From: a virus
IMG/VR virus record: IMGVR_UViG_3300043772_001300
Location: 1-37,200 of that record
Length of the DNA: 37,200 nucleotides
Strand: one strand, 5' to 3'
A model generated the notes under the pieces. It did no database searches. It saw only the letters and a program-made list of their open reading frames with translations, and was not told where the DNA came from. This document shows, one piece after another, positions 1 through 37,200 of the stretch. A program made the translations under genes and the position numbers. The stretch's first letter is position 1. Every line of letters starts with the position of its first letter.

Positions 1-178
1 TGGCGGCTGGTGACAACGGTGCAGTCAAGCTGTTCTACCCAACCTTCTTTGCAACTTGTGATGTGGCGATTGCGGCTGGTGGCCTAGTGGCTACTAGCAC
101 GGCTGGCCTCGTAACAACTGCGGCCGCCAATGTTGGCGTTGTCGGAGTTGCTCTCGAAGGTGGCGCGGCCGATGCAGT
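1..178. repeat. Terminal redundancy, left copy
   Basis: Bases 1-178 match 37023-37200 at 177 of 178 positions. The only difference is C at 128 against T at 37150, a silent change in an alanine codon. Joining the copies gives a 37,022-bp circle and restores an intact reading frame across the join, so this is most simply the overlap of a circular assembly. A biological direct terminal repeat is less likely, because the ends fall inside a gene. Confidence 0.9.
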
Positions 179-209
179 CATCGAAGTCGCAGTTCCCTTA
201 ACCCAGTAA
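1..209 (+). CDS. Head decoration-like protein, 3' part (continues from 36872)
   Basis: This is the C-terminal part of the small capsid-associated protein whose start is at 36872. Across the circular join the gene is 360 nt and encodes 119 residues. The segment is rich in Ala, Gly and Val with short beta-type stretches (VGVVGVALEGG). This fits the DUF2190-like or decoration proteins often encoded just before the major capsid gene. The stop TAA is at 207-209 and the capsid gene starts 29 nt later. A role in decorating or stabilising the head is inferred from position and composition. Confidence 0.8.
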   Translation, partial: AAGDNGAVKLFYPTFFATCDVAIAAGGLVATSTAGLVTTAAANVGVVGVALEGGAADAVIEVAVPLTQ

Positions 210-229
210 TTTAACCAACCAAGAAAGAA

Positions 230-241
230 TATAAATATATG
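230..241 (+). promoter_or_regulatory. AT-rich leader TATAAATATATG
   Basis: The 12-nt string TATAAATATATG ends with the capsid start codon (239-241). The same 12 nt end with the start codon of the gene at 15182. The purine-rich run AAGAAAG lies just upstream here. It may act as a translation-initiation leader or a -10-like element; the sequence does not decide between these. Confidence 0.35.
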
Positions 242-1210
242 GCATACGTAAGTGGCGGTTCAACAATTCGCGCCGACATCAACCAAGCGTTGATCGAAGC
301 CCCTCAAGCCGATGTGGGCTTGATCGGTTCGCAACTTCTCCCTTTGCAGAATGTAGATGCAAAGAGCGGAACTTATCTCAAGGTTCAACTTGGAGGTGCA
401 GACCTCTTGACCAACAATGCAACGGCTCGTGATTCTGGTTCTGCTTACAGCCGAGGGATTCGTTCCTTCAGCTCTGCGAACTATTCCACGGACGAATTTG
501 GCTTGGAAGAGCTTCTGGACGATGCAACCGCTTTGGACTTAAACCGGTTTTTTTCGTACGAGGCAGAAACTGCGAAGTTCTTGCTCCGTCAGTTAAAACT
601 CTCCCACGAGAAGCGAGTGTCCGATCTTCTCTGGGCTGGTTCGACTCCCTTCACCATCTCTGACCAGACTCGTGCAGTAGCCTACACGAACACGAACATC
701 GCCACGGTTGATGTGGCTCGTGACGTAGCGGCTGCCAAGCTCGCTCTTAACCAGTATGGTTATGAAGTGAATTGTATTGCGATGTCGGCCAATGTGTTTG
801 AGTTAATCAGACGCTCCACCCTCCTCCAGAATCAGTTCTTCGGAGTTATCTCCAATACTGGTGCTCGGTTGTTGAGCGAAGCTGAAATCGCGGCGGCTCT
901 AGGAGTTCAGAACCTCCTCGTTGGTCGTGCGGCGATCAACTCTGCCGGTAAGAACAAGGCCTACACCGGCTCGTTCGTTGTTCCAGACACCAAAATCATT
1001 GTTGGTCAGATTTCTGGTGGTGAGTTCACCGCTGGTGGAATCGGACGCACCTTGGTCTGGTCGGGTGACTCGGCTGGTGGTTTCGTCTCTGAAAGCTATC
1101 GTGACGAAGCTCGCCGTAGCCAAGTGCTCCGCGTTCGCATGAACACGGACGAAGTTGTGATTGACCCGAACGCCGCCGTTCGTATCACCACCAACTACTC
1201 CGCAAGCTAA
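239..1210 (+). CDS. Major capsid protein
   Basis: The 323-residue protein fits the usual size of lambda E-like or HK97-fold capsid proteins. It lies directly after the terminase, gpW, portal, protease and decoration genes, in the classical head-module order. It has an acidic helical region near residues 88-125 (EFGLEELLDD, then FFSYEAETAKFLLRQLK), like the spine helix of HK97-fold proteins. A later segment with VIDPNAAVRIT resembles the C-terminal strand of this family. A strong terminator follows 28 bases after the stop, as expected for an abundant late protein. Identity rests on order, size and general pattern. Confidence 0.88.
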   Translation: MAYVSGGSTIRADINQALIEAPQADVGLIGSQLLPLQNVDAKSGTYLKVQLGGADLLTNNATARDSGSAYSRGIRSFSSANYSTDEFGLEELLDDATALDLNRFFSYEAETAKFLLRQLKLSHEKRVSDLLWAGSTPFTISDQTRAVAYTNTNIATVDVARDVAAAKLALNQYGYEVNCIAMSANVFELIRRSTLLQNQFFGVISNTGARLLSEAEIAAALGVQNLLVGRAAINSAGKNKAYTGSFVVPDTKIIVGQISGGEFTAGGIGRTLVWSGDSAGGFVSESYRDEARRSQVLRVRMNTDEVVIDPNAAVRITTNYSAS

Positions 1211-1238
1211 AGATTGCTGTTGGTTGTTTCATAGGAAT

Positions 1239-1274
1239 GGGGGGAGGGCGAAAGCTCTCCCCCCTTTTCTTTTT
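1239..1274 (+). terminator. Rho-independent terminator after the capsid gene
   Basis: Bases 1239-1249 pair with 1254-1264 in an 11-bp GC-rich stem with one G-U pair, closed by a GAAA tetraloop. The T-rich run TTTTCTTTTT follows at 1265-1274. It should stop or attenuate head-gene transcription before the lectin-like and sugar-modification genes. It is the clearest terminator I found in the window. Confidence 0.92.
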
Positions 1275-1307
1275 GACATAAATAGTGAAACTATGGTAGG
1301 AAATCCT
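1273..1307 (+). promoter_or_regulatory. Possible promoter plus GAAATCCT leader
   Basis: A perfect -35-like TTGACA (1273-1278) overlaps the end of the terminator T-run. TATGGT lies at 1292-1297, but the 13-nt spacing is too short for a standard sigma70 promoter. TAGGAA at 1297-1302 gives 18-nt spacing but is a weak -10. GAAATCCT (1300-1307) abuts the ATG at 1309 and is one of five such leader elements. Restarting transcription after the terminator makes sense, but the exact promoter is unclear. Confidence 0.4.
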
Positions 1308-1308
1308 T

Positions 1309-2076
1309 ATGACAATTAACGGCGGTGTTCGGATTGGCGGGCTGGGCATCTTGCAAGCCTTCGACCCAGATGCGTCAGCTTATTTTGTTCGGGCGGGAGT
1401 GACAGATGCTACCGCTAAAATTCAAATAAATCTTTTTGTAAAAGGCACAAAAGATTTGGGGCTTTGGAACGATATGGTTTGCTGGCCCTTGCGCTCAACA
1501 CAGAACGCCGGAACTGATGCAACTGCGTATAGTCTTGGTGGATTAGGTACTTTCAATGGGACTCTTGTAAATAGCCCAACTTGGGGAACAGATGGAATTA
1601 CATTTACTTCTGGCTCTTCTCAAACAATCAATGTTCCCAACATTACAATATCACAAACGGATTTAATAGTGGCCACTTGCCAAGCCGCAACATCTGGAAA
1701 TTTAAGAACTATTCAATATCAAGCAGTTGGTGGTGTGGAGGTTGGAATTTGGGCGGGCTTTGGTTCTCAATATTATTGGGATTGCAGGGCAACAACAAAT
1801 GCCTTGAATCGGCAACTTGGTGGATCAGTGCCAACCAGTCGAATATTTACGCACGGAATTGCCTCCACAAGCGGAGCCTCATTCTTTGTTAACGGAACAT
1901 CAGTTTTAAGTAATGCGGTTTCATCTACAAATGCTAATGCTTCTAGTTTTCAAATAAACCAAAACGGCGGAAATGGTAACATTGCTTTTGCCATGTTCTC
2001 ACAATCAATAACTGGAAACGCATCGCTCTATAACCTTTACAAGACAACCCTTGGTGATGGCTTTGAATTGCCATAA
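1309..2076 (+). CDS. Lectin-like (LamG/concanavalin-type) virion protein, copy 1
   Basis: This 255-residue protein has an N-terminal module around residues 17-60 (DPDASAYFVRAGVTD, then INLFVKGTKDLGLW). It is followed by a beta-rich, Ser/Thr/Gly-rich region of the kind found in concanavalin-like domains. The same layout occurs in the product of 9283-10080, with similar spacing of the (D/N)A-A-Y-x-x-R-x-G-(V/I)-T-D signature and an SPTW motif, so the two are paralogs. No signal peptide is seen. The role is probably a virion surface or carbohydrate-binding protein; a receptor-binding role is inference. The gene is the first after the capsid terminator and starts 1 nt after a GAAATCCTT leader. 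Confidence 0.7.
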   Translation: MTINGGVRIGGLGILQAFDPDASAYFVRAGVTDATAKIQINLFVKGTKDLGLWNDMVCWPLRSTQNAGTDATAYSLGGLGTFNGTLVNSPTWGTDGITFTSGSSQTINVPNITISQTDLIVATCQAATSGNLRTIQYQAVGGVEVGIWAGFGSQYYWDCRATTNALNRQLGGSVPTSRIFTHGIASTSGASFFVNGTSVLSNAVSSTNANASSFQINQNGGNGNIAFAMFSQSITGNASLYNLYKTTLGDGFELP

Positions 2077-2097
2077 TTAAAAACAAGAAATCCCGCT

Positions 2098-2105
2098 GAA
2101 ATCCT
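2098..2105 (+). promoter_or_regulatory. GAAATCCT leader element
   Basis: GAAATCCT followed by AA sits directly before the ATG at 2108, and a related GAAATCCC lies at 2087-2094. The same 8-mer precedes the starts at 1309, 11046, 17167 and 20918. No Shine-Dalgarno is visible here, so the element occupies the position where one would be expected. Confidence 0.4.
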
Positions 2106-2107
2106 AA

Positions 2108-3760
2108 ATGAAACACAAAATCTCACTCTATCTCATCGCTGGTAATGAAGAAGAATACATTGAGCGTTGCCTCAAGTCGTTTGCCCCAATCGCAAAAGAA
2201 ATGGTTGTATGTATTTCTAGGGGGTCAGCTACATCCGACAAGACCGAGGAAATTGCAAGTGGCCTTGGGGCGAAGATCGTTCATTACCAGAATAAAAGAA
2301 CTGATTGGAATCACATAGACGATTTTGCCACGGCAAGGAACACGGCTCTTGAGGCTTGCTCAAACGAATGGTGCTTATGGGTAGATGCTGACGATGTGAT
2401 GGCCGAGGATGGGGCGAAGGTTGTCGAGGAGGCTATTGACCTTGCCGTTGAGAAAGACGCTCACCTCGTGGCGTTAAAGTACAATGTAGACAACGCTGGC
2501 CTCATCCCCCTCCGAGAAGAAATCTCTAAGAGGGGGACTTGTAGTTGGAAGAATCGAGTCCACGAAATGCTGGTTTGCAAAGAGTCAAACAAGACGATTG
2601 GCGTGGATAAGATTTTCCGTATTCACAAGCCTCACGGATATAAGCCGAGGAGTGCGGAGAGGAACTTAAACATCTTGGCCGATACGCTTGCACCAGCCGC
2701 TAACTCCCTTTACTACCAAGCCCAAGAGTATTTTCTGTCTGGGCAAATCGAAAAGTGCATTGATTCGAGTATGCGGGCGTTGGCCTTCCCAGAACTAGAG
2801 GATACGCTTCGCTACGATGTGCTTTGCAACTTGGGGAGAGTCGCACCAGAAAACGAAAGGCTTTCTTATCTTGGACAAGCCGTAGCCCTACAACCCGATA
2901 GGCGAGAGGCTTATTTTTATATAGCGAATCATTGGTCTGGTAAGGGCAACTGGGTAAAGGCTTATGGTGCGGCAAGGACTTGTCTGACTTTGCATCGCCC
3001 AAAAGCCCATTACTGGAATCTTGTTGAGGCAATCTACAACTGGCAAGCGATGGACTTGTACGAGACGGCTTCGGTGTGCGTGGGAGAGACTGCCGAGGCC
3101 GAAAAGATTAAGAAGATGCGACCAGCCCCCAAGATCAGCATTATCCACGCAACAAGAGGCAGGCCACAAGTCGCTTGGCAGAGGCGTTGGCAATGGCTTT
3201 CCCTAGCTCAAAACCCACTAGAAATTGAGTGGTTGTTTATGGTCGATCACGATGACCCCACCGACTACACCCCCCACCAAGCCATTAGGTGCAGTCCCGG
3301 AGGCATCGTCAACGCTTGGAACGCAGGGGCGAAAATAGCCAAAGGGGACATTATCGTTCAAATGAGCGATGATTGGACACCCCCCCGCCATTGGGATGCC
3401 CTAATTTCGAACGCTGTTGGGGATACAAAGGCAGAGAAAGTGCTGGCAGTATCAGATGGCCTTCGGCAAGACAAGCTCCTCTGTATGGCGATCTTGACGC
3501 AATCTAGGCTCAAGAAGCAGGGGCATCTATTCCATCCAGACTACCAAGAGTCGGATGGCATCTATTCGGATAATGAGCATACAGACAGAGCCTACGAAGA
3601 ACAAGTGGTGGTTGAGGCTAGACATATCCAATTTAAGCACGATAACCCTATGTTTAATGGTGGGCAACCAGATGAACAACTAAAAAACCACAACAAGCCG
3701 GAGTTCTACGAGAAAGGAAAAGCGATCTATGAAAAACGCAAAGCAAATAATTGGATGTAG
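2108..3760 (+). CDS. Double GT2 glycosyltransferase with TPR-like middle
   Basis: This 550-residue protein appears to hold two GT-A glycosyltransferase domains. The N-terminal domain (about 1-160) begins ISLYLIAGNEEEYIERCL, has a metal-binding DADD at 93-96 and an RVHE at 150-153, as in SunS-like GT2 enzymes. Residues 195-330 are helical repeats resembling TPRs. The second domain (about 341-550) begins PKISIIHATRGRP and carries DHDD at 380-383 and MSDDW at 419-423. It should transfer activated sugars to a protein or glycan acceptor in the host cytoplasm. It opens a cassette of glycosyl- and methyltransferases lying between head genes, so a virion acceptor is plausible but unproven. Confidence 0.85.
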   Translation: MKHKISLYLIAGNEEEYIERCLKSFAPIAKEMVVCISRGSATSDKTEEIASGLGAKIVHYQNKRTDWNHIDDFATARNTALEACSNEWCLWVDADDVMAEDGAKVVEEAIDLAVEKDAHLVALKYNVDNAGLIPLREEISKRGTCSWKNRVHEMLVCKESNKTIGVDKIFRIHKPHGYKPRSAERNLNILADTLAPAANSLYYQAQEYFLSGQIEKCIDSSMRALAFPELEDTLRYDVLCNLGRVAPENERLSYLGQAVALQPDRREAYFYIANHWSGKGNWVKAYGAARTCLTLHRPKAHYWNLVEAIYNWQAMDLYETASVCVGETAEAEKIKKMRPAPKISIIHATRGRPQVAWQRRWQWLSLAQNPLEIEWLFMVDHDDPTDYTPHQAIRCSPGGIVNAWNAGAKIAKGDIIVQMSDDWTPPRHWDALISNAVGDTKAEKVLAVSDGLRQDKLLCMAILTQSRLKKQGHLFHPDYQESDGIYSDNEHTDRAYEEQVVVEARHIQFKHDNPMFNGGQPDEQLKNHNKPEFYEKGKAIYEKRKANNWM

Positions 3761-3983
3761 GAAAGAAAAAAGCGGGGAGAATACCAAGGGGCTTGGTATA
3801 ATTAGATTTGGCAGGTCTCGCCCCGACCCCACCAAGTATGTGAAGGTTGATATTACCTATGACGAAAAAGCAGAGAAAGATTTGTATGAGTGCGGGATGA
3901 TTGCGTTGAAGCACGACAAGGAAGCAGTTATTCAATATGTGATTGTTAAGGCTCTTACTGGATACGCAAAGTGCAAGAAATAA
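3729..3983 (+). CDS. Hypothetical small protein in the sugar cassette
   Basis: The frame encodes 84 residues, overlaps the end of the glycosyltransferase gene by 32 nt and overlaps the next gene by 13 nt. The sequence is basic and Lys-rich, with a central VKVDITYDEKAEKDLYECG stretch that looks like a folded alpha/beta segment. I do not recognise a family. The tight overlaps with co-directional neighbours argue that it is translated as part of the cassette. Confidence 0.55.
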   Translation: MKNAKQIIGCRKEKSGENTKGLGIIRFGRSRPDPTKYVKVDITYDEKAEKDLYECGMIALKHDKEAVIQYVIVKALTGYAKCKK

Positions 3984-4579
3984 GCATCCACGACCCCTTC
4001 GGCCAAGCCCTTGCAAAGTATAGCGAGGGGCTAGATGTTGGCCTAGAGATCGGGGGAGGAACTGGGGACGGCTCAACTCAATGTATCAGAACCAAAAAAC
4101 TATTCAGCATTGAGAACCACCCAGACCGCATAGGCCGTCACTCGATGAACCTATCTGCAAGAGGCGGTGTTGCCATCAACGGCACGGCAACCCTATCAAA
4201 ACTCTGGATGAACAAGAATGATATCGAGGAATTTTATAGGACTATCAAAACAAATCTCAACCAATACCCGCTCGAAACAGTTCTTGGCTGGCACAATGTC
4301 TGCCTAGAAACCGCCTTTCCATATTCAACCAACGCAATCGAGGACATTCACTTTGAGCATAATGTGGACTTTAACTTTGTTCTAATCGATGGCTCGCCTT
4401 TTTCGGGCGAGGCAGAGTTGCGTTGTGTTCGTCCCTTCCTAGCGGAGAAGGCGATCATCGCATTGGACGATGTGAACGACATAAAGAACTACACCAATTA
4501 CCACAAGCTCAAGGGATTTGCCGAACTGCTCTGGGAAGATTTGTCGGCGCGTAATGGTGCGGCCATATTCCGACTATGA
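3971..4579 (+). CDS. Class I SAM-dependent methyltransferase-like protein
   Basis: The 202-residue protein starts at a GTG overlapping the preceding gene. A glycine-rich SAM-binding motif (LEIGGGTGDGS) is at residues 25-35. An acidic residue follows the next strand (SIEN, near 48), and FVLIDGSPFSG (136-146) looks like motif IV. These features indicate a Rossmann-fold methyltransferase of unknown substrate. The next gene overlaps by 4 nt and is also a methyltransferase, so the likely acceptor is a sugar or glycosylated product made by the neighbouring enzymes. Confidence 0.7.
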   Translation: MQEISIHDPFGQALAKYSEGLDVGLEIGGGTGDGSTQCIRTKKLFSIENHPDRIGRHSMNLSARGGVAINGTATLSKLWMNKNDIEEFYRTIKTNLNQYPLETVLGWHNVCLETAFPYSTNAIEDIHFEHNVDFNFVLIDGSPFSGEAELRCVRPFLAEKAIIALDDVNDIKNYTNYHKLKGFAELLWEDLSARNGAAIFRL

Positions 4580-5145
4580 CCATTGTTCAAATCGGATGCA
4601 ACGATGGGAAAGATCATATTCTAGATTTTTGCCAAAAGAACAAGGAGGGCATTGAAGCGATACATCTCATAGAGCCAAACCAAGAAGGACTTGAGGATTG
4701 CAAGCAGACATATTCAGATTTCAAGCAAGCCAGATTCCACAACCTTGCGATTGTTCCGAATGATGCTGGCTCTGTGGATTTGTATATTCCACGCTCAAGA
4801 GCACTCAACGCTCACGCCTCAACATTGAAAAATCACCTAATAGATCACGGCCATACAAGTTTTGATACAATCAATGTACCCGCCACAAGCCTTTCCGATT
4901 TCCTCGATTCAAACAAAATTGAGAAGTGCGACAGACTTTATATCGACGCGGAGGGCTTGGATTGCGAGATCATACTTAATTTTGATATTGAAAAACACAA
5001 TATCAAAAGAATCGAATTTGAGACTCTTCATTCTGACGGATTTCTAGCAAAGGGGAAAAACTACAACTCTTGTATTAAGAAACTAAAAACCCTCGGATAC
5101 AAGGCAACAGAAGCAGGCGAATATAACGAGGCTTACGAACTATGA
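4576..5145 (+). CDS. FkbM-family methyltransferase
   Basis: The 189-residue protein has the FkbM layout: SAM-binding IGCNDGKD at 6-13, an acidic strand end LIEPN at 31-35, and the signature IDAEGLDCEIL-like segment at 123-132. FkbM enzymes mostly O-methylate hydroxyls, often on sugars or polyketides. It overlaps the previous gene by 4 nt (ATGA) and the next by 4 nt, so it is probably translationally coupled. It most likely O-methylates a sugar built by this cassette; the acceptor is inferred. Confidence 0.85.
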   Translation: MTIVQIGCNDGKDHILDFCQKNKEGIEAIHLIEPNQEGLEDCKQTYSDFKQARFHNLAIVPNDAGSVDLYIPRSRALNAHASTLKNHLIDHGHTSFDTINVPATSLSDFLDSNKIEKCDRLYIDAEGLDCEIILNFDIEKHNIKRIEFETLHSDGFLAKGKNYNSCIKKLKTLGYKATEAGEYNEAYEL

Positions 5146-5681
5146 ACCATATTACCGCAGATTTTGGAGAGGATTGGTTCGACTCGCCCAATGTCTATAA
5201 AATGCTTGTGGAGAATTGCCGAGACGATGGCAAGATTGTTGAACTCGGGGCGTGGAAGGGAAGAAGCTCGGCGTTTCTTGTGGTTGAGGCATACAATAAA
5301 AGCCCAAAGATCGAGGTTCATATTGTCGATACTTGGGGAGGAAACCCCCTTGATGGCTCACAAGATCAATCTGATGAGCTATATCATAAATTCATTTCTA
5401 ATATGTCTCTCCTTGCCAGACCCTACCAAGCCCACAGAATGACAACAAACGAGGCGGCGGGGCTTTTTAAGGACGAATCTTTAGACGCAGTTTTTATAGA
5501 CGCAGATCATTCGTATGAGGCCGTGAAGCTAGACATTCAAAATTGGTTGCCGAAGGTTCGCAAGGGCGGGATATTGGCTGGACACGATTATAATTCTGCT
5601 TGGCCGGGAGTCATAAGGGCGGTTAATGAGATACTTCCAGAGGCAGAAAAAATAGATTATTGCTGGGTAAAAAAATGCTGA
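5142..5681 (+). CDS. Class I methyltransferase (Methyltransf_24-like)
   Basis: The 179-residue protein shows KIVELGAWKGRSS (31-43, SAM motif I), an acidic residue in IVDTWGG (D63), FIDADHSYEAV (118-128) and AGHDYN (146-151). This pattern is typical of Methyltransf_24 and CmcI-like enzymes that modify small molecules or sugars and often need a divalent metal. It is the third methyltransferase in a row and overlaps both neighbours. The end of the gene overlaps the ATG at 5675. Confidence 0.85.
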   Translation: MNHITADFGEDWFDSPNVYKMLVENCRDDGKIVELGAWKGRSSAFLVVEAYNKSPKIEVHIVDTWGGNPLDGSQDQSDELYHKFISNMSLLARPYQAHRMTTNEAAGLFKDESLDAVFIDADHSYEAVKLDIQNWLPKVRKGGILAGHDYNSAWPGVIRAVNEILPEAEKIDYCWVKKC

Positions 5682-6442
5682 CTATCTTTACCATCGTTCT
5701 AAATGGGATGCCCTATATTGAAAAGCATCTTGCCGAGTTCCGGAAGCTCAAGATTCCTTGGCAATGGAGGATTGTCGAGGGAGTGAGCGAGCCTCTGGGA
5801 TGCACCCGCTGGTGTAAGCAAGTTCCAGAGAAGTATCACAAGGACTTCAAGAGCATTGACGGAACGCACGAATATCTTGAGAGCATTAGGGACGAGAATG
5901 TTTCAGTCTGTTGGCAGGCCAAGCCTTTCCCCGGCAAGCTGGCGATGATTAACGAGGCGTTGCAGGGGGTGGAGAATGGCGTTGTTATGGAGATTGATTC
6001 TGATGAGATATGGAGAGCCGACCAACTAGAGGCAATCTTCGGGCATCTCAAGGGATGCGAGGAGGGGCGAGCCATGCAGTTCCATTGTAATTATTATGTG
6101 GGGCAGAATAAAAAAGTAGTGACTAGAGAGGGCTTTGGCTCGAACTGGTACGAATGGTTTAGGGCTTGGAAGTGGGGCAAGGATGTTCATTTTACCAGCC
6201 ACGAACCACCCAAACTTAATGTCCAATCGATGATGATTCCAAGAGGAGTGACTGAAACTTGGGGGCTAACCTTCGACCACTTTGCCTACGCCACAAAGGA
6301 GCAAGCCCAATTTAAGGAAGATTTCTATGGGTATAAAGGGTTAGTCGAGGGCTGGGAAAAGCTACAACAAACCACAAGCCCAGTTAGGTTAAGGGATTAC
6401 TTCCCATTCATAACAGACAAGAGCGTTGCCGATGAGTGTTAA
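5675..6442 (+). CDS. GT2-like glycosyltransferase
   Basis: The 255-residue protein begins LTIFTIVLNGMPYIEKHL, a GT-A type start, and has the metal/nucleotide-sugar motif EIDSDEIW at 106-113. The C-terminal half contains WYEWFRAWKWG and an HE pair (SHEPP) that could contribute to the acceptor site. I chose the ATG at 5675, which overlaps the previous stop, over an in-frame TTG at 5660. It should transfer a sugar in the cytoplasm as part of the same cassette as the double glycosyltransferase at 2108. Confidence 0.78.
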   Translation: MLTIFTIVLNGMPYIEKHLAEFRKLKIPWQWRIVEGVSEPLGCTRWCKQVPEKYHKDFKSIDGTHEYLESIRDENVSVCWQAKPFPGKLAMINEALQGVENGVVMEIDSDEIWRADQLEAIFGHLKGCEEGRAMQFHCNYYVGQNKKVVTREGFGSNWYEWFRAWKWGKDVHFTSHEPPKLNVQSMMIPRGVTETWGLTFDHFAYATKEQAQFKEDFYGYKGLVEGWEKLQQTTSPVRLRDYFPFITDKSVADEC

Positions 6443-7103
6443 AACTATTAAGTATTCGCAGAGGCTTGGGGATGTGCTTCGTTGCCTACCAGCCGCCAAG
6501 CATCTAGCCGACCAAGGCCACGAAGTTTTCTTTGATTGCTTCGATCAGTATCACGGAGTTTTTGATTTGGTTAGTTATGTGAAGTCTGGGAGCAAAGGGG
6601 ATGTTTTAGATTTGGAGATATGGCCGAACAGATACAACGACTTCATTAAAAGCAGAAAGAATTGGCACGACTTTGTTTATAGCCATCCAGAGATTAAGGA
6701 AGCAGACAAGACCAACATTGTATTAGATAAGTTGGACGATAAACCAGCCGAGGGACTCCCAGAGACTTATAACCTAGTTGCCCCTTTTGGCATATCTCAA
6801 ACATTCTACCGCAACCCACTAACCCTAATCCAAGACGCAGTTAAAGAGCTTGGCAAAGAAAGCGTATTTGTTTTATGTCCACCCGACATAAAGATTCAAG
6901 GATTGAACACATATACAGCCCAATCGGTTGAGCAAATGGTGAAGGCGATTAGGGGGGCGGGTAAGTTCTGGGCAGTCAATTCTAGCCCCATCATCATCGC
7001 CTCTGCGGTTAGGAGAGGCAAGGAAAGTAGGTTTTGGGGTGAGAAAAACGAGGCAGAAGTTCAGAATGTTTTTCACTTTGAGGGGCTAACAAGGATGGAT
7101 TGA
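6432..7103 (+). CDS. GT9-like (GT-B) sugar transferase-like protein
   Basis: The 223-residue protein opens with YSQRLGDVLRCLPAAKHLAD. This resembles the N-terminal Rossmann half of GT9 or heptosyltransferase-like GT-B enzymes, which often start with a G-D-x-(I/L)-x-x-(L/T)P pattern. It is much shorter than the roughly 320-350 residues usual for that family, so the nucleotide-sugar-binding half is reduced. Residues 105-220 (NLVAPFGIS, then WAVNSSPIIIASAV) resemble the late GT9 motif region. The ATG at 6432 is preferred over TTG at 6426. It is the last gene of the cassette, with head-tail genes resuming 16 nt later. Confidence 0.55.
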   Translation: MSVKTIKYSQRLGDVLRCLPAAKHLADQGHEVFFDCFDQYHGVFDLVSYVKSGSKGDVLDLEIWPNRYNDFIKSRKNWHDFVYSHPEIKEADKTNIVLDKLDDKPAEGLPETYNLVAPFGISQTFYRNPLTLIQDAVKELGKESVFVLCPPDIKIQGLNTYTAQSVEQMVKAIRGAGKFWAVNSSPIIIASAVRRGKESRFWGEKNEAEVQNVFHFEGLTRMD

Positions 7104-7119
7104 CATAGGAGGTGATTTT

Positions 7120-7437
7120 ATGGCGGGGACAATCGACACCTCTTACTTCTCAACTGACCTGCAATTTATGATTGCGGATATGTTCCAAACAGTCACCGGG
7201 CTTGCCTCCTCCGCAGTTTCCGCATCAGTCACAGACCTCATAACCGCTAGTGAGCTTGAGATAGGCGGGGAGGTGTTTAGAGTCACCCAGTCTGTCGTTG
7301 TCTTGGCTTCAGCAATCTCTGCCCCCACGATTGGTTCACTTTGCACCGTGAGTGGGGTGGAGCGTATGATCGGAGGATTTTCGCAAAGCACCGATGGCCT
7401 TTCCTTTACCATCGAACTTGCGGAGATTACGACCTAA
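7120..7437 (+). CDS. Head-tail joining or completion protein (small)
   Basis: The 105-residue protein has one of the strongest Shine-Dalgarno sites in the window (AGGAGGTGAT, 9 nt before the ATG). It combines an N-terminal helix (DLQFMIADMFQTVTG) with a beta-rich remainder. This matches the size and position of gpFII-like or similar connector proteins that lie between head and tail genes. No family was identified with certainty. Its stop shares one base with the next start. Confidence 0.6.
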   Translation: MAGTIDTSYFSTDLQFMIADMFQTVTGLASSAVSASVTDLITASELEIGGEVFRVTQSVVVLASAISAPTIGSLCTVSGVERMIGGFSQSTDGLSFTIELAEITT

Positions 7438-7853
7438 TGGCCTCGATAGAGAGGGAGGTTGAGAACGCCCTCCTTAATGTTGTTTCTGGCATTACTGGCG
7501 TGAACTTCTTTACCAGCGAGAGGGGGACGGCTCGCACGATGCCCAGCGTCACGGTTCAAGCCACCATAAGCGGGGAGGAGCTTGTGCCTTTCTCTGGTGT
7601 ATTCAAAACCCCAGTCACCATCACCTATGTTGCTAGGGCAGACACAACTGCACGAACTGCCTTCGATGCCAAGTTTTATGACATATTAGAGCAACTCTAT
7701 CGTGACCCAGACTTAGCTAGTTATCTAACCACCAATTCAAACATCACCTTCTATGTGGCGAAGGTGACTGGGGATAATCCAGCCGTGATTGGGCAGAATA
7801 GAACTTGGTCAAGGGCTATGACCCTAGACATCACCGCAACGGCAAAGAAATGA
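7437..7853 (+). CDS. Head-tail or tail completion protein, paralog A
   Basis: The 138-residue protein starts at the ATG overlapping the preceding stop (TAATG). A helical N-terminus (EREVENALLNVVSG) leads into a beta-rich core. Residues 36-85 (SVTVQATISGEEL, then TYVARADTTARTAFDAKFYDILEQLY) align clearly with the following gene product, so the two are tandem duplicates. Position and size fit a gpZ/gpU-like tail completion or terminator protein. Translational coupling to both neighbours is likely. Confidence 0.68.
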   Translation: MASIEREVENALLNVVSGITGVNFFTSERGTARTMPSVTVQATISGEELVPFSGVFKTPVTITYVARADTTARTAFDAKFYDILEQLYRDPDLASYLTTNSNITFYVAKVTGDNPAVIGQNRTWSRAMTLDITATAKK

Positions 7854-8341
7854 ACAACAGCGTTCAGATAAATGTGGAGGATGCTTTAGAAAATCTCCTA
7901 GCCAACATTCCCAACCTCAATGTCTATAAGACAAATAGGATTGGGGCAAAGCTATTTCCATCAGCCACAATCTCGGCATCGGTTGGTGGGCAATTGCTTG
8001 GTAATTACACCGGAGTGTATGAAGTCTCTGTTTCCGTGGACTACTCCGACACAGCGGCCAAGATTAGCCAAGAGAATTTTGACGCCGAATACTGCTCAAT
8101 ATTTGAGGCGTTCTATTCTGAAACCACGCCCCTCTTTACCAAGATTCAAAACAACATAGTCGATACAAAGGTCTATACGGCACGGATTACTGGTCAAACC
8201 CCGACGATTAGGACAGCTAAAAGAGCTTGGCAGAGGGGCTTGAAGATGAGCCTTATTTGCACCCCATCGGAGACGGACGACGGCTTGAGGTATTTGAACT
8301 TCTACCAAAAGGAAAACTCAATGTATGTGGCAGTCATTTAA
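7850..8341 (+). CDS. Head-tail or tail completion protein, paralog B
   Basis: The 163-residue protein starts at an ATGA overlap. It shares its layout with the preceding protein: an N-terminal helix (NVEDALENLLANI), then a beta-strand pair with YTGVYEVSVSVDY, a helix FDAEYCSIFEAFY, and a C-terminal strand with R-T-A-K-R-A-W. It has an extra C-terminal tail of about 25 residues. Two divergent copies may have split tail-terminator and tail-completion roles; this is inferred from order. Confidence 0.68.
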   Translation: MNNSVQINVEDALENLLANIPNLNVYKTNRIGAKLFPSATISASVGGQLLGNYTGVYEVSVSVDYSDTAAKISQENFDAEYCSIFEAFYSETTPLFTKIQNNIVDTKVYTARITGQTPTIRTAKRAWQRGLKMSLICTPSETDDGLRYLNFYQKENSMYVAVI

Positions 8342-8357: not shown

Positions 8358-9272
8358 ATGGCACTTTCCATTTTAGACGGCAATCAATCAGCAACTACGC
8401 TTTCAACCATCCTTTCGAGTGGGCAACATATCACCGCCCACACGGTTATTAGCCTTGGCACTCAAGCCATTACGGACATCACAAGTGCAGTCAGCGGGAC
8501 GAGCGTATGTGTAGGCTCAATCTCTATCTCTGGCACGCCTAGCGTTACTGGGTCGGTATCAGTTCTCAACTTCCCAGCATCGCAATCAACCACCTTCGGG
8601 GCAGTTACAGGAAGCGTGTCAGTTCTAAATTTCCCTGCCTCTCAATCAGTAACCTTTGGGGCTACAACTGGAAGCGTATCTGTTCTTAATTTTCCAGCAT
8701 CGCAAGCCGTCACATTTTCCGCAGTCACCATCTCTAATTTCCCCGCCACTCAGCCGGTCTCCTTGACTACGCTTCCCGCATTAGTTGCGGGCACGGCACA
8801 GATTGGTTCAGTAACGGCATCTATCAGCGGGACAGTCCCGATATCCATTTCATCGGTCACAATCGGCAACAGTCTGACCATCGCCTCACTCCCCGCACTA
8901 GCCGCTGGCACAGCCCAGATCGGCTCTGTTACGGCATCCATATCGAACAGCGTTACGATTGTGTCGCTCCCTGCGATTAGTGGGACGGTCACGGCGAATC
9001 TTGCAATCTCATCCACAGTCATCACCTCTGGCAGTTTTACATCACTAACTTCAGCCACGCTCGTTCCCGCAAACCCCGCCCGCAAAATGGCGACTGTCTT
9101 TAATCTTGGGGCAGGGCAGTTGTTTATTAACGCAGGGGTAACCGCCACCACCCTAGGCGGGGGATTTATGGTTGCCTTGTCCAGCGGAGATTTATTTGAA
9201 TGTAATTACACGACTACCACACTTTCGGCTATCTTTGCAACAGCAGGAACGGCTAGTTGGATGAGTCACTAG
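8358..9272 (+). CDS. Repeat-rich beta-structured fibre or decoration protein
   Basis: The 304-residue protein consists largely of Ser/Thr/Val/Ile-rich strands. Residues 65-124 are three 20-residue repeats starting GSVSVLNFPASQ, followed by a fourth degenerate copy (ISNFPATQPV). A second repeat pair (LPAL.AGTAQIGSVTASIS) is at about 139-157 and 178-196. The NFPA(S/T)Q motif is common in repetitive phage surface proteins. The last 80 residues look like a compact beta domain. It is probably a trimeric or elongated fibre-like virion protein next to the lectin-like protein at 9283. No chaperone or cleavage site is visible. Confidence 0.75.
   Translation: MALSILDGNQSATTLSTILSSGQHITAHTVISLGTQAITDITSAVSGTSVCVGSISISGTPSVTGSVSVLNFPASQSTTFGAVTGSVSVLNFPASQSVTFGATTGSVSVLNFPASQAVTFSAVTISNFPATQPVSLTTLPALVAGTAQIGSVTASISGTVPISISSVTIGNSLTIASLPALAAGTAQIGSVTASISNSVTIVSLPAISGTVTANLAISSTVITSGSFTSLTSATLVPANPARKMATVFNLGAGQLFINAGVTATTLGGGFMVALSSGDLFECNYTTTTLSAIFATAGTASWMSH
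8550..8729 (+). repeat. Three tandem 60-bp coding repeats
   Basis: Three in-frame 60-nt units (8550-8609, 8610-8669, 8670-8729) encode GSVSVLNFPASQ plus eight variable residues each. Codons differ between units while the protein stays the same, indicating old repeats under protein-level selection. Copy number could vary between relatives. Confidence 0.9.
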
Positions 9273-9282
9273 GAGCTGGGCG

Positions 9283-10080
9283 ATGCCTCTTTTTAGATCC
9301 ACTTTTAGCGTTTTCATTCCTACTGCCGATGCCAATGCCGCCTCATACATATCGAGGGTTGGCATCACAGATTTACAGGGGCAGATAGACATTCACAACT
9401 TTGTAAAAGAATTAAAAAACGCAGGCTTGTATTCTCTGCTCACCTCAATTTATCTGTGCCGCTCTCGCCACAACAAGGGAAGCGGGACAACTTTATTTGA
9501 TCTAAAAAACGCTTACGATCTTACCGCTGTAGGTTCGCCCACTTGGTCTGATCTTGGCACTTTTTATGGAACTGCTGGAAGCGATTACCACGGCTCTGCT
9601 TCAATCACGCAAGCTGTAGCGGCATCTATTCTTCAAATTGGCTGTTGTGCAAGGACAAGGCTGGCTGCCACAGATAATCAAGCCATAATGTCCTATGATG
9701 GTGGTGCAGGTGACAGCAACTATTTCAAAGTAATTTACAATAGTTCTTCCTCACAATACTACATGTTTTATACAAGAAATTCTGTTGCTTATTTTCCAAC
9801 AGCAGGAAGCACAACCAATAGAAATTCAGCATATCAAACAGTACAAGCCTCGATGGGAGCTACTGTTCATAGGCAAATGATAAATGGTCAGCTAGTTACT
9901 GCAACTCTTGCTACTTCAAAAAATCCTATTAATACGCAAACATTTAAACTTGGTTCAACGGCAACATTCCAAGGCTACATAGGTTACGCAAATTTCGGAA
10001 CTCAAGAACTTACTCTTCAACAATTATCCGATTTAGAGATGTGCTACAATAACTACATTATGACTGGTCTAATGCGCTAA
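9283..10080 (+). CDS. Lectin-like (LamG/concanavalin-type) virion protein, copy 2
   Basis: The 265-residue protein is a paralog of 1309-2076. It has the same N-terminal module (ADANAASYISRVGITD, then IHNFVKELKNAGLYS), an SPTW motif, and a beta-rich concanavalin-like remainder ending ELTLQQLSDLE, typical of LamG-type domains. It follows the repeat fibre gene by 10 nt. A surface-exposed or carbohydrate-binding virion role is likely; direct receptor binding is inference. Having two copies suggests two host-attachment or capsid-surface proteins with different specificities. Confidence 0.72.
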   Translation: MPLFRSTFSVFIPTADANAASYISRVGITDLQGQIDIHNFVKELKNAGLYSLLTSIYLCRSRHNKGSGTTLFDLKNAYDLTAVGSPTWSDLGTFYGTAGSDYHGSASITQAVAASILQIGCCARTRLAATDNQAIMSYDGGAGDSNYFKVIYNSSSSQYYMFYTRNSVAYFPTAGSTTNRNSAYQTVQASMGATVHRQMINGQLVTATLATSKNPINTQTFKLGSTATFQGYIGYANFGTQELTLQQLSDLEMCYNNYIMTGLMR

Positions 10081-10659: not shown

Positions 10660-11007
10660 ATGCCAGCGGTCACGGTGGGAAATGCTGGTCTTGTATTCGG
10701 GTTAAGCACAGAGACGATTGGTCTTGTGCAGAGCTTCTCTGAGACTCGTAATATCGAGAAGAACGAAATTAGGAATGCGAGCGGGGATATTTCTGGAATC
10801 GGATACTATAACCCAACGACAGCCTACTCCTTGAGCGTTGCAATTACTGGTGCCAACACAAGCCTAACGGTTGGCGGTGCTTTTGCCTCTCTTGCAAACG
10901 CCACTACGGTTGGTACTTGTCGAATCGACTCAATCGCCCTCAACAAGACGAATACTGGCTTCGTCACTATCGACATCTCGGCTACTGGATACCCTAACGT
11001 AAGTTAA
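10660..11007 (+). CDS. Candidate tail tube or small tail protein
   Basis: The 115-residue, beta-rich protein lies just before the G/GT-type chaperone genes and the tape measure, where lambda-like phages encode the tail tube. A stretch SFSETRNIEKNEIRNASGDISGIGYY followed by alternating hydrophobic strands fits tube-like folds. It is smaller than most tube proteins, so the assignment is tentative. GAGGT about 10 nt before the ATG is a usable Shine-Dalgarno. Confidence 0.5.
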   Translation: MPAVTVGNAGLVFGLSTETIGLVQSFSETRNIEKNEIRNASGDISGIGYYNPTTAYSLSVAITGANTSLTVGGAFASLANATTVGTCRIDSIALNKTNTGFVTIDISATGYPNVS

Positions 11008-23744: not shown

Positions 23745-23940
23745 GAGATTAAAACTACTTGAGCAGTTCCACGCAATCGCATCTAAAAGATTAAGGGATT
23801 TGTTCCGAGACTTCGACCACGCCAAGCGTGAAAACTATAAAGACATCATCAACCACCTCGACTACTCGCATCGCATAACCAAAGAGCTATTGGAGAGGGC
23901 GAAGAAATACCAGAAGCGGGATGTGGAGAAGAAAAAGTGA
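23734..23940 (+). CDS. Hypothetical 68-residue basic helical protein
   Basis: The product is basic and helical (LEQFHAIASKRLRDLFRDFDHAKR), ending in a Lys-rich tail. It sits directly upstream of the replication organiser with a GTGA overlap. It may bind DNA or a replication partner. No family is recognised. Confidence 0.5.
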   Translation: MSVKRLKLLEQFHAIASKRLRDLFRDFDHAKRENYKDIINHLDYSHRITKELLERAKKYQKRDVEKKK

Positions 23941-24683
23941 AGCGAGATTCCTTCTGGTTTCCCTTTGAGCCGAACCGCTGGCTCTCCAACGAGAAGCTAT
24001 CGTTAGTGAGTCTCGAGGCCAAGGGGCTATGGATTCACCTAGTATGCCTCATCTATAAGGCCAACGCCGGCGGGAGATTGGTCATCAACGGCAATCCACC
24101 CACCCCGGAACAGATAAGCAGAATGGTTGGTCAAGACGCCAGCCCACTCATTAAAGAGCTTGAGGTTGCAGGGGTTTATGAGATTAAAGATGGGGCAATC
24201 TACCACGGCGGCACGGCGGCAACCCTAGCAGATATGAACAAAAGATCGGCTGGTTATGCGTCAAGAATAACCCATAGATGCCCCAAAGATGAGCCATCTA
24301 TGCACCATCTATCGTCCATAGATGATCAAAAGATGGGACACAATAACAATAACAATAACAATAACAACAAGAAAGAGAGAGAGGGCTTGCGCCCCACGCA
24401 CGCCGAATGGATTGCCTTTGCAAATGAGATCGGATGGAGATTGACGGATGCGGAGTCGGCTTTTGATTACTACCAATCGAACGGATGGAAGGTCGGGGGG
24501 AAGGCATCGGTAAAGGATTGGAAAGCGTGTGCCAGAAATTGTCAGAGACGGAGCAACCAACAACCAACCAAAGGAAACCAACCAATGAAGAAACCAATCA
24601 AATCGGGGTGCGAATCCCCACCAACCTACAAAATTATGGGCTTTCAGACGCTTGAAGCGTGGGAAAAGGCGGGGTGTCCGTGA
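23937..24683 (+). CDS. Replication organiser (DnaD/DUF1376-like)
   Basis: The 248-residue protein starts at a GTG overlapping the previous stop. Its N-terminal domain (about 1-110) has a winged-helix pattern (FWFPFEPNRWLSNEKLSLVS, then GLWIHLVCLIYKA) as in phage replisome organisers. A nine-Asn linker (136-144) joins it to a C-terminal domain with WKVGGKASVKDWKACARN (about 180-197), typical of phage replication proteins. It probably opens the origin and loads the host helicase. No polymerase or helicase gene is present, so host enzymes must complete replication. Confidence 0.72.
   Translation: MKRDSFWFPFEPNRWLSNEKLSLVSLEAKGLWIHLVCLIYKANAGGRLVINGNPPTPEQISRMVGQDASPLIKELEVAGVYEIKDGAIYHGGTAATLADMNKRSAGYASRITHRCPKDEPSMHHLSSIDDQKMGHNNNNNNNNNKKEREGLRPTHAEWIAFANEIGWRLTDAESAFDYYQSNGWKVGGKASVKDWKACARNCQRRSNQQPTKGNQPMKKPIKSGCESPPTYKIMGFQTLEAWEKAGCP
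24342..24368 (+). repeat. AAT/AAC microsatellite coding nine Asn
   Basis: Nine Asn codons (four AATAAC pairs plus AAC) encode the linker of the replication organiser. The repetition is prone to slippage in 3-nt or 6-nt steps, which would change linker length without breaking the frame. Confidence 0.9.
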
Positions 24684-25075: not shown

Positions 25076-25338
25076 TCGCAATGTTAGAGGCCGAGCAGTT
25101 TGAGTTGCCCTTTATGCGAACCACGCACCCAGTCAAGACGGAAGGCCACGACCAGAACGCTCGAATCCTAGCTCACCTTCAAACTGGGCGAACACTCACG
25201 GCTCTGGAAGCCCTAGAATGGTTCAAGTGTTTCCGGTTGGCGAGTCGGATCTGCGATTTGAAAAAGGCGGGGCATCAGATCGAGAAGCGAACGGTTCAAA
25301 CCAACAGCGGCAAGCGAGTGGCGGAGTATTATTTGTGA
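25072..25338 (+). CDS. HTH_39-like winged-helix protein
   Basis: The 88-residue protein starts at an ATGA overlap. The core NARILAHLQTGRTLTALEALEWF, with RLASRICDLKKAGHQIEKR after it, matches the small helix-turn-helix family found in many phages (HTH_39). The last residues form a beta hairpin (KRVAEYYL). It overlaps the methyltransferase gene by GTGA. A regulatory or DNA-structural role is likely. Confidence 0.7.
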   Translation: MIAMLEAEQFELPFMRTTHPVKTEGHDQNARILAHLQTGRTLTALEALEWFKCFRLASRICDLKKAGHQIEKRTVQTNSGKRVAEYYL

Positions 25339-26411
25339 AGTTTATTGAGCTATTCGCCGGTATTGGAGGTTTTAGGCTTGGCCTAGAACGAACCGGACAC
25401 CAATGTGTCTGGGCTAACGAATGGCTCGAAAAACCAAGGAGAATATATGCAAAACAATTCGGAGACAAACCAGATGGCAGAGACATCAGAACTATTCGAG
25501 CCGAGGACATACCAGAGGCAGATTTCATTTGTGGAGGATTTCCTTGTGCCACTTTTTCGATTGCAGGGAAAAGATCGGGGTTCTCTTTGGAGGACACAAG
25601 AGGGACTCTTGCTTTTGAAATGTTTAGATTGGCTAGGGATAAGGGAATACCATATATACTTTTTGAAAATGTTAAAGGACTCCTCAACCACGACAACGGA
25701 AGAACCTTTGGAGTCATACTCGAAGTCTTGGATGGGATGGGGTATGACTCTCAATGGGAACTTCTTGACAGCAAAAATTTCGGAGTCCCGCAACACAGAG
25801 AAAGGATTTTCCTTGTCGCAAATTTTAGAGGAAAACCCAGACCCAAAGTATTTCCTATCACAAACCCAGATGGAAAGGATGATGGCAAGAACAGAGGAAA
25901 ACAAGAGACAAGGGCGGGGCTTTTCTCCAACATTTCTCCAACCCTTGATGCCCATTACTACAAAGGAGGAGCTTCAAGACAGTATGTTAACGAAGAAGCC
26001 GTTGCCCAATGGCGAAGGACGCACTTCCGAGAATACAGATCAGATGGAGTTCCAACTTTAACCGCAAACATGGGAACAGGCGGGAACAATGTTCCATTCA
26101 TTCACGCAAGAAGCCACACACAATCCAATATGATACAGAGGAATAGGCAGAGTGAATATGCTTGGACTTTAGATTCAAAACCACAAAACAAGATGGGCGT
26201 TTCAAATGATGGCAAGAGCATAAGGAAGTTTACGCCCAAAGAATGCGAGAGACTTCAAGGCTTCCCGGACGATTTTACTAGGTGGATGCTTATGGATGAT
26301 GGAAGCCTAAAAGAATCTGCCGATGCAGAACGCTACGAACGATGCGGGAGAACCGTCACAGTTCCGGTGATCGAAGCAATAGGAAGGAAATTTGGCTATG
26401 AGTGGTATTAA
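25335..26411 (+). CDS. DNA (cytosine-5) methyltransferase
   Basis: The 358-residue protein has the full set of motifs: FAGIGGFRLGLE (7-18, SAM binding), GGFPC with catalytic Cys71, ENVKGLL (111-117), QHRERIFLV (153-161), a variable target-recognition region (about 195-295), FTPKECERLQGFPDDF (299-314) and GRTVTVPVIEAIG (338-350). It starts at GTG 25335 with a GTGA overlap. It should methylate phage DNA and block host restriction. No partner nuclease gene is seen next to it. A second frame is open across much of this gene (see 25447-26061). Confidence 0.92.
   Translation: MKFIELFAGIGGFRLGLERTGHQCVWANEWLEKPRRIYAKQFGDKPDGRDIRTIRAEDIPEADFICGGFPCATFSIAGKRSGFSLEDTRGTLAFEMFRLARDKGIPYILFENVKGLLNHDNGRTFGVILEVLDGMGYDSQWELLDSKNFGVPQHRERIFLVANFRGKPRPKVFPITNPDGKDDGKNRGKQETRAGLFSNISPTLDAHYYKGGASRQYVNEEAVAQWRRTHFREYRSDGVPTLTANMGTGGNNVPFIHARSHTQSNMIQRNRQSEYAWTLDSKPQNKMGVSNDGKSIRKFTPKECERLQGFPDDFTRWMLMDDGSLKESADAERYERCGRTVTVPVIEAIGRKFGYEWY
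25447..26061 (+). CDS. Candidate overlapping gene inside the methyltransferase gene
   Basis: A 204-codon frame in the +1 phase starts at an ATG with a strong Shine-Dalgarno, AAGGAG (25436-25441), five nt upstream. The product is not low-complexity. It contains GWGMTLNGNFLTAKISES and then SLSQILEENPDPKYFLS, which from memory resembles a phage protein family seen next to cytosine methyltransferases. The segment lies opposite the QHRERIFLV and following residues of the methyltransferase. The region is also stop-poor on the minus strand, which lowers the weight of openness alone. I consider it a plausible true overlapping gene. Confidence 0.45.
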   Translation: MQNNSETNQMAETSELFEPRTYQRQISFVEDFLVPLFRLQGKDRGSLWRTQEGLLLLKCLDWLGIREYHIYFLKMLKDSSTTTTEEPLESYSKSWMGWGMTLNGNFLTAKISESRNTEKGFSLSQILEENPDPKYFLSQTQMERMMARTEENKRQGRGFSPTFLQPLMPITTKEELQDSMLTKKPLPNGEGRTSENTDQMEFQL

Positions 26412-36871: not shown

Positions 36872-37200
36872 ATGGCAACAAATATTGACGGTGGTGCAGT
36901 TCGCACCTTTAACTTCGCTTCGGCGATTTCGGCTTACCGATTCGTCCAAATCGGAACAGATGGATTGGCAGTAGCGGCAGTCTCCGGCACGGCTCGTGCG
37001 GTTGGCTCTACTATTTCCGATGTGGCGGCTGGTGACAACGGTGCAGTCAAGCTGTTCTACCCAACCTTCTTTGCAACTTGTGATGTGGCGATTGCGGCTG
37101 GTGGCCTAGTGGCTACTAGCACGGCTGGCCTCGTAACAACTGCGGCCGCTAATGTTGGCGTTGTCGGAGTTGCTCTCGAAGGTGGCGCGGCCGATGCAGT
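36872..37200 (+). CDS. Head decoration-like protein, 5' part (continues at 1)
   Basis: The frame begins ATNIDGGAVRTFNFA and runs to the end of the window. It continues at base 179 of the left end to a stop at 209, encoding 119 residues in total. AAGGA upstream is a moderate Shine-Dalgarno. The protein is small, neutral and beta-rich. It lies between the protease-scaffold and the capsid genes, the usual place of gpD-like decoration or DUF2190-like proteins. Confidence 0.8.
   Translation, partial: MATNIDGGAVRTFNFASAISAYRFVQIGTDGLAVAAVSGTARAVGSTISDVAAGDNGAVKLFYPTFFATCDVAIAAGGLVATSTAGLVTTAAANVGVVGVALEGGAADA
37023..37200. repeat. Terminal redundancy, right copy
   Basis: This matches bases 1-178 except T at 37150 instead of C at 128. 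Both codons (GCT, GCC) encode alanine. The copy indicates that the window is a circular or circularly permuted molecule opened inside the decoration gene. Confidence 0.9.

Follow-up and report, generated by a model that had tools for sequence, protein, structure and literature searches.

The stretch analysed here, called the window below, is the whole of IMG/VR record IMGVR_UViG_3300043772_001300 (37,200 bases). Because its ends overlap as a direct repeat (1–178 equals 37023–37200 with one mismatch), the genome is essentially complete. Nearly all the long genes are on the + strand, and so is the subject of this study, a cassette of seven overlapping open reading frames (ORFs) at 2108–7103. In order, these encode the double glycosyltransferase (GT) GT2a, the small protein orf84, the methyltransferase MTa, an FkbM-type methyltransferase, a Methyltransf_24 enzyme (MT24), a second GT2-type enzyme (GT2b) and a GT9/TibC-like enzyme. 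The cassette sits in a slot whose left border is the major capsid protein (MCP) gene (239..1210, +), a match to the major head protein family phrog_1005 at E 9.8e-26, and whose right border is a gene at 7120..7437 (+) presumed to encode a head–tail connector. A preliminary description of this DNA had recognised a seven-gene sugar cassette here, and all of its ORFs are found in place, overlapping and conserved. Its placement between capsid and head–tail genes also stands, with the corrections that a LamG-like gene and a terminator intervene on the left, and that the head–tail role of the genes on the right, none of which (7120 included) has a PHROG match, is presumed from position only.

The enzymes of the cassette

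The overlaps, counted from the ATG at 5675 for GT2b (not the TTG at 5660) and the ATG at 6432 for the GT9-like gene, are 32 nt between GT2a and orf84, 13 nt between orf84 and MTa, 4 nt between MTa and FkbM and again between FkbM and MT24, 7 nt between MT24 and GT2b, and 11 nt between GT2b and GT9. Judged by a median dN/dS of 0.07–0.18 across the seven, and by conservation in relatives (71–125 of which encode the common cassette genes), all are real genes under purifying selection and not chance ORFs.

GT2a (2108..3760, +) is the constant 5′ member of the slot. It is composed of a GT-A domain, tetratricopeptide repeat (TPR) helices and a second GT domain. Two stretches match Glycos_transf_2 (PF00535, 1.1e-15), both halves match PHROG glycosyltransferases (9.7e-30 and 2.6e-8), and the C-terminal residues 342–529 match the glycosyltransferase family phrog_14945. 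The helices give weak Pfam TPR-type matches, and profile positions 199–311 match engineered TPR proteins (best 5.9e-15). The two GT stretches and the TPR profile matches bear out the earlier description of a double GT2 enzyme with TPR-like helices. The nearest solved structures to the GT2a profile are GmaR (3e-11) and SunS (3.7e-9), together with 7msk, a related GT2 enzyme. Like GmaR, the Listeria flagellin O-GlcNAc transferase, and like SunS, GT2a has an N-terminal GT2 domain with a DxD motif followed by TPR helices. D93, D95 and D96 of this motif are invariant in relatives, and the W-x-D-x-D-D and VHE motifs are kept in a lineage that is only 38% identical. By these features GT2a would belong with the GmaR/SunS-type GT2-TPR glycosyltransferases, and transfer to an acceptor is predicted. 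An identification with GmaR proper was rejected; the C-terminal part of GmaR is an antirepressor, whereas residues 342–529 of GT2a make up the second glycosyltransferase domain. Flagellin is the protein that GmaR glycosylates, and binding of this substrate has been proposed for the GmaR TPR domain (PMC9638930).

The small conserved protein orf84 (3729..3983, +; dN/dS 0.175) is encoded in 71 of 86 non-redundant slots and has no convincing family or PDB match. Its predicted model is of low confidence (pLDDT 54) and unusable for a fold search. The next three genes encode the three S-adenosylmethionine (SAM) methyltransferases, one of them FkbM-type, that had been proposed, and each assignment is upheld by family matches. 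MTa (3971..4579, +) is a class I enzyme that on its own falls below the Methyltransf_24 cut-off (E 0.064, 14.6 versus 26.3 bits), but 21 of 26 members of its family match Methyltransf_24 (best 5.5e-6). It carries a nearly invariant EIGGGTGDGSTQ motif, and its profile has no significant match in the PDB. The other two are accessory genes and clear their cut-offs: the FkbM-type methyltransferase (4576..5145, +) matches PF05050 at 1.9e-12 (48.1 versus 22.7 bits), and MT24 (5142..5681, +) matches PF13578 at 9.3e-19 (68.7 versus 26.3 bits). PHROG labels the family of the latter protein "DNA methyltransferase", a function that we rejected against the clear Methyltransf_24 match.

GT2b (5675..6442, +) matches PF00535 at 1.7e-4, slightly under the Pfam cut-off when taken alone (22.0 versus 23.3 bits), and its DxD motif (D108, D110) is invariant in relatives. 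The usual 3′ member of the slot (6432..7103, +) is a predicted compact GT-B glycosyltransferase that matched nothing at the sequence level in the libraries searched. PDB searches with the GT2b or the GT9-like profile gave nothing useful. Since the Pfam GT9 profile matches none of 22 members of the GT9-like family, we keep the label at "GT9-like fold" and do not propose membership in GT9. The AlphaFold model is a GT-B fold (pLDDT 92.6, pTM 0.90), for which Foldseek finds TibC as the best match (6.8e-7) and also WaaC and a GT9 enzyme, and heptosyltransferase II superimposes over 217 residues (VIA Z 15.2, rmsd 3.2). Plant NDH-complex chains score like the GT9 enzymes on this model (Z 14.5–15.2), a likeness that we took as shared fold only. 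In common with TibC and the GT9 heptosyltransferases, the protein has the GT-B fold and an N-terminal RLGD motif whose Asp is invariant; it differs from them in length (223 versus 320–390 aa) and in the lack of any sequence-level match. WaaC has its catalytic Asp at this position. TibC uses ADP-heptose as its donor and forms an iron-containing dodecamer. The protein had been called truncated, and here only the GT9-like part of the name survives: truncation is rejected, as the length is 222–227 aa in the relatives checked and the GT-B fold is complete. TibC itself heptosylates the autotransporters TibA and AIDA-I (PMC4358343).

A fixed slot with exchangeable content

The preliminary description had suggested looking for the same cassette in related phage genomes. 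We searched IMG/VR with MCP and with GT2a; each matched more than 230 relatives, of which the best 80 per search were kept. GT2a lies between MCP and the homologue of the 7120 gene in 85 of 85 metagenomic loci spanning both, and the 7120 gene is syntenic in every one of these. Only four MCP loci lack GT2a, and all four end less than 500 nt from MCP. Seen from the GT2a side, MCP is upstream in 39/39 loci with 4 kb of upstream DNA, and the 7120 homologue is downstream in 31/31 loci with 7 kb of downstream DNA. The slot also recurs in a second lineage (L211–L219, plus L147 from a genome bin), in which MCP is 45–50%, GT2a about 38% and the GT9-like protein 42–45% identical to those of the window. 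The order there is MCP, an optional LamG gene, GT2a, variable genes, GT9, and then homologues of the 7120, 7437, 7850 and 8358 genes; in L211 and L147, another gene occupies the GT9 place. By these comparisons, the slot is position-fixed behind MCP in an uncultured phage lineage.

The gap from MCP to GT2a is about 110 nt in most relatives, and exceeds this only where there are insertions of LamG-type or other small genes. In the window, the insert is an optional gene for a LamG-like (lectin-fold) protein (1309..2076, +) that is absent in most relatives. This protein has no Pfam match of its own, while a gene in the same position in L215 matches Laminin_G_3 at 2.1e-8. A second LamG-like protein with a similar N-terminus is encoded at 9283–10080, after the 8358 gene. 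Another small protein of about 98 aa ("PYYDQ.SHAARP"), not in the window, is found between MCP and the island at 1987–2283 of L105 and in 38 other loci, often with a LamG gene.

What lies between the constant ends changes freely. There are 22 gene arrangements among the 86 non-redundant slots, and placing them on the GT2a tree takes no fewer than 40 switches from one arrangement to another. FkbM, present in 15/86 slots, requires at least 10 changes, Methyltransf_24 (17/86) at least 14, and an accessory family of the type found in L136 at least 18, against 8–9 each for GT2b, GT9, MTa and orf84. Slot content differs even between phages whose GT2a proteins are 98–99% identical. Genes found in the slot elsewhere encode a sulfotransferase (L090), a GT7 enzyme (L017), an NAD-dependent epimerase with a B12-radical-SAM protein (L060, L071 and L080), radical SAM with transketolase-type halves (L117 and L053), Methyltransf_23 (L127), a fusion of GT47 exostosin with a radical-SAM-like part (L215), an NTP_transferase with a HAD phosphatase (L147), and further FkbM and other methyltransferases. 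In L117 (2821–5865, on a contig shared with L053), the radical SAM protein, two transketolase/E1-type halves and one protein of unknown family replace MTa, GT2b and GT9. Going by family, most of this repertoire serves to activate, transfer or decorate sugars.

The junctions are kept through these exchanges. At the start of GT2b, a 7-nt stop/start overlap (as in ATGCTGA) is found at 90/90 non-redundant junctions, where the preceding gene may be MTa, FkbM, Methyltransf_24, the L136-type gene, GT7, the epimerase or a DUF7796 protein. GT9 and GT2b overlap by 11 nt in 74/74 cases, and FkbM and MTa by 4 nt in 19/19. Therefore, exchange is gene-exact, with the stop/start coupling kept, and we infer that this coupling is what selection preserves.

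An intrinsic terminator stands in the gap between MCP and the island (1239..1275, +, with the hairpin at 1239–1264), having a perfect 11-bp stem, a 4-nt loop, a T-run and a stability of −25.9 kcal/mol. A terminator-like hairpin is present in the MCP–island gap of 102/102 unique relatives, with stem sequences that differ yet pair. Since the same lenient hairpin test was also positive in 21 of 104 intragenic control regions, the informative part of this result is its strict universality across the gaps. No excess of promoters was found. A terminator kept directly after MCP suggests that the island is probably read through at a lower level than the capsid gene, as would fit enzymes. The preliminary description had overlooked this conserved terminator, along with the absence of the LamG gene in most relatives, the interchangeable content and the completeness of the compact GT9-like fold.

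Co-inheritance with the tail genes and the role of the island

The distances among GT2a sequences were compared with those of flanking genes by Mantel correlation; as the sequences are related by descent, their p values cannot count as independent tests. GT2a correlates with MCP at 0.30, though the two are 0.1 kb apart in most relatives, and with the 7120, 7437 and 10660 genes at 0.82, 0.88 and 0.85. The last of these (10660..11007, +) encodes a presumed tail protein, so called by position only, which served as the marker of the tail module and lies about 7 kb away. The partial correlation of GT2a with the tail gene given MCP is 0.85, and that with MCP given the tail gene is 0.23. GT2a type predicts 10660 type in 48 of 48 cases. 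MTa, despite its place within the block, shows far weaker coupling (0.37). Because GT2a distances track the connector and tail genes and not MCP, the main recombination border appears to lie between MCP and GT2a, at the terminator, with the glycosyltransferases travelling with the connector and tail genes. This co-inheritance makes a connector or tail protein the more likely acceptor, rather than the capsid.

The family assignments, the comparison with relatives and the nearest solved structures, which include protein or peptide glycosyltransferases, strongly support a phage-encoded sugar modification system built into the structural-gene block, and its best explanation appears to be virion glycosylation with sugar O-methylation. 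We think it probable that the island is a position-fixed writer of glycans by which the phage glycosylates a protein of its own virion and varies the glycan by gene exchange. The sequences show gene content, homology, conservation, position, exchange and co-inheritance; the acceptor, the sugar, the methylation of that sugar and the benefit are what we infer. The suggestion that the virion is decorated with O-methylated glycans had been made before; sugar modification in the structural block remains of it, while the capsid, the first acceptor then named, is now less favoured in view of the co-inheritance with the tail. Working in the cytoplasm, GT2a would recognise an acceptor protein of the virion by means of the TPR helices and attach the initial sugar or sugars, GT2b and the GT9/TibC-like enzyme would extend or branch the glycan, and MTa, FkbM and Methyltransf_24 would cap or vary it by O-methylation. 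Transcription of the island past the conserved terminator would hold the enzymes below the level of the capsid protein, and its overlapping genes would be translated as a chain. Exchange of accessory genes at exact stop/start overlaps could then place different glycans on similar particles, with a benefit such as resisting surface-directed defences or altering adsorption. More tentatively, and with rather less confidence, we consider that the slot might act as a glycan "serotype" locus, in which a tail or connector protein receives a core glycan from the tail-linked glycosyltransferases, and the exchanged methyl-, sulfo- and glycosyltransferases, inserted at the exact stop/start overlaps, individualise it for each phage.

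SunS, the sublancin S-glycosyltransferase, glycosylates a peptide. Cytoplasmic glycosylation of a virion protein is favoured because the nearest solved relatives of the cassette enzymes include GmaR, SunS and TibC, all of which act on proteins or peptides. It is also favoured by the lack of a membrane segment in any cassette protein, none of which has a 19-residue hydrophobic stretch above a KD value of 1.04. Several observations weigh against it. For TPR-GT2 enzymes, the annotation lipooligosaccharide transferase is in use as well. By VIA Z, the GT9-like model is closer to WaaC and heptosyltransferase II (14–15) than to TibC (12.7), and the commonest function of the GT9 fold is heptosyl transfer to lipopolysaccharide (LPS). 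The radical-SAM and transketolase-like genes of some slots are untypical of simple O-methyl glycans, and GT2a might be inherited with the tail simply because the two stayed linked once recombination had occurred at the terminator.

The strongest alternative is that the enzymes alter host surface glycans (LPS or capsule) and so block superinfection or the re-adsorption of progeny. The LPS heptosyltransferases among the fold neighbours of the GT9-like protein and the variable slot content, which fits surface-antigen dynamics, speak for it, and glycosyltransferase clusters of jumbo cyanophages have been interpreted as modifying host polysaccharide (PMC7824862). We nevertheless regard it as unlikely: the cassette holds no membrane protein and no flippase or polyprenol-phosphate transferase of the gtrABC seroconversion type, its location in the structural block is kept in two lineages and co-inherited with tail genes, and the nearest solved relatives of GT2a are protein or peptide glycosyltransferases. 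Far less probable is a reading in which the target is not the virion but a peptide or small molecule, secreted or cytoplasmic, orf84 being the peptide on which the SunS-like enzyme acts. For this there are the peptide acceptor of SunS, the small size of orf84, its overlap with both GT2a and MTa, and the conserved Cys-Lys tail that ends it in most relatives; against it, 15 of the 86 slots with GT2a have no orf84, it has no neighbouring leader or export gene, and conservation of its C-terminal half is of the kind seen in a folded helical protein. Modification of the phage DNA against restriction, by base glycosylation and methylation, is the least probable of all, for although glycosylated phage DNA is known and PHROG applies its DNA methyltransferase label to the MT24 family, the Pfam families of the cassette are small-molecule or sugar O-methyltransferase types, a separate C5-cytosine DNA methylase is encoded elsewhere in the window, no base-hydroxymethylating enzyme was seen among the part of the ORFs that was scanned, and the sulfotransferase, GT7 and GT47 genes of relatives' slots fit DNA poorly.

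If virion glycosylation from such a dedicated, rapidly varying slot is correct, phage particles can bear strain-specific sugar tags, much as bacterial surface antigens vary, and the locus offers constant enzymes and swappable modules for studying the acceptor, the glycan and the benefit.

Known systems and the rest of the genome

To our knowledge, few phages have been found to carry sugars on their particles, and the best documented of these infect mycobacteria. For some mycobacteriophages it is established that glycosyltransferase and O-methyltransferase genes bring about glycosylation of the virion (PMC11600133, PMC11256854, PMC13313380), and one account mentions phages that carry an O-methyltransferase and, in tandem, three glycosyltransferases, said to modify the capsid and tail tube (PMC11600133). 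As far as those accounts go, our case resembles the mycobacteriophages Che8 and those of cluster O (Freeman et al. 2023) in gene content, namely phage-encoded glycosyltransferases and an O-methyltransferase, whose targets in those phages are given as virion proteins (capsid, tail tube). It differs from Maravista (cluster F1, like Che8), in which the glycosyltransferases lie toward the genome's 3′ end and not in a slot after MCP. The 18 phage records that GT2a matches include no mycobacteriophage; GT2a is the one protein for which this comparison was made. Interchangeable slot content and the 7-nt junction are not described in the mycobacteriophage virion-glycosylation literature examined, and no description of the slot was found in the open-licence papers searched. 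Virion glycosylation itself is already known; what is new is an unrelated uncultured lineage with a fixed slot, constant end enzymes and swappable middle genes.

The closest parallel in arrangement is ctKR88 (Caudoviricetes sp., MW202524.1, Manatee Spring). Like the window, it has MCP, one small gene and then a GT2-TPR enzyme (27.5% identity over 270 aa), which is followed by two further transferase-type genes, a methyltransferase, a "has synthase" and another methyltransferase, with all of these genes on one strand. Unlike the window, it is a podovirus by its record and has no detectable MCP match, and its glycosyltransferase, at 761 aa, is longer than GT2a and fails to align with it over the C-terminal half. 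Because ctKR88 shows it without a detectable MCP match, the MCP-adjacent association of GT2-TPR, further glycosyltransferase-type and methyltransferase genes extends beyond the lineage.

Known phages show no similarity to the DNA of window positions 1–8000 and no match to MCP, so that no cultured relative was found. Relatives of the large terminase subunit (TerL) among known phages are weak, about 25–35% identical among the matches listed, and a TerL search of genome-bin contigs gave no match. Among genome-bin contigs, GT2a relatives occur only on L147, a phage contig in a Betaproteobacteria metagenome-assembled genome (MAG), and on L148, a short contig of a Chthoniobacteraceae MAG; a host assignment from these was rejected as too weak.

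Upstream of MCP are TerL (30987), a portal-type gene (32979) and a protease-type gene (35759), and a decoration gene spans the join of the record ends. Downstream of the slot, the paralogue-like neighbours at 7437–7853 and 7850–8341 cross-match at about 25% and are kept in both lineages, with no PHROG match. The product of 8358–9272 is rich in Ser and Thr (33%), has SVSVLNFPASQ-type repeats and varies among relatives; it is a possible glycan acceptor. The C5-cytosine DNA methylase is at 25218–26411 (1.4e-73) and is followed at 26392 by a SAM methyltransferase (Methyltransf_25). An ORF at 23937–24683 contains a run of nine Asn codons.

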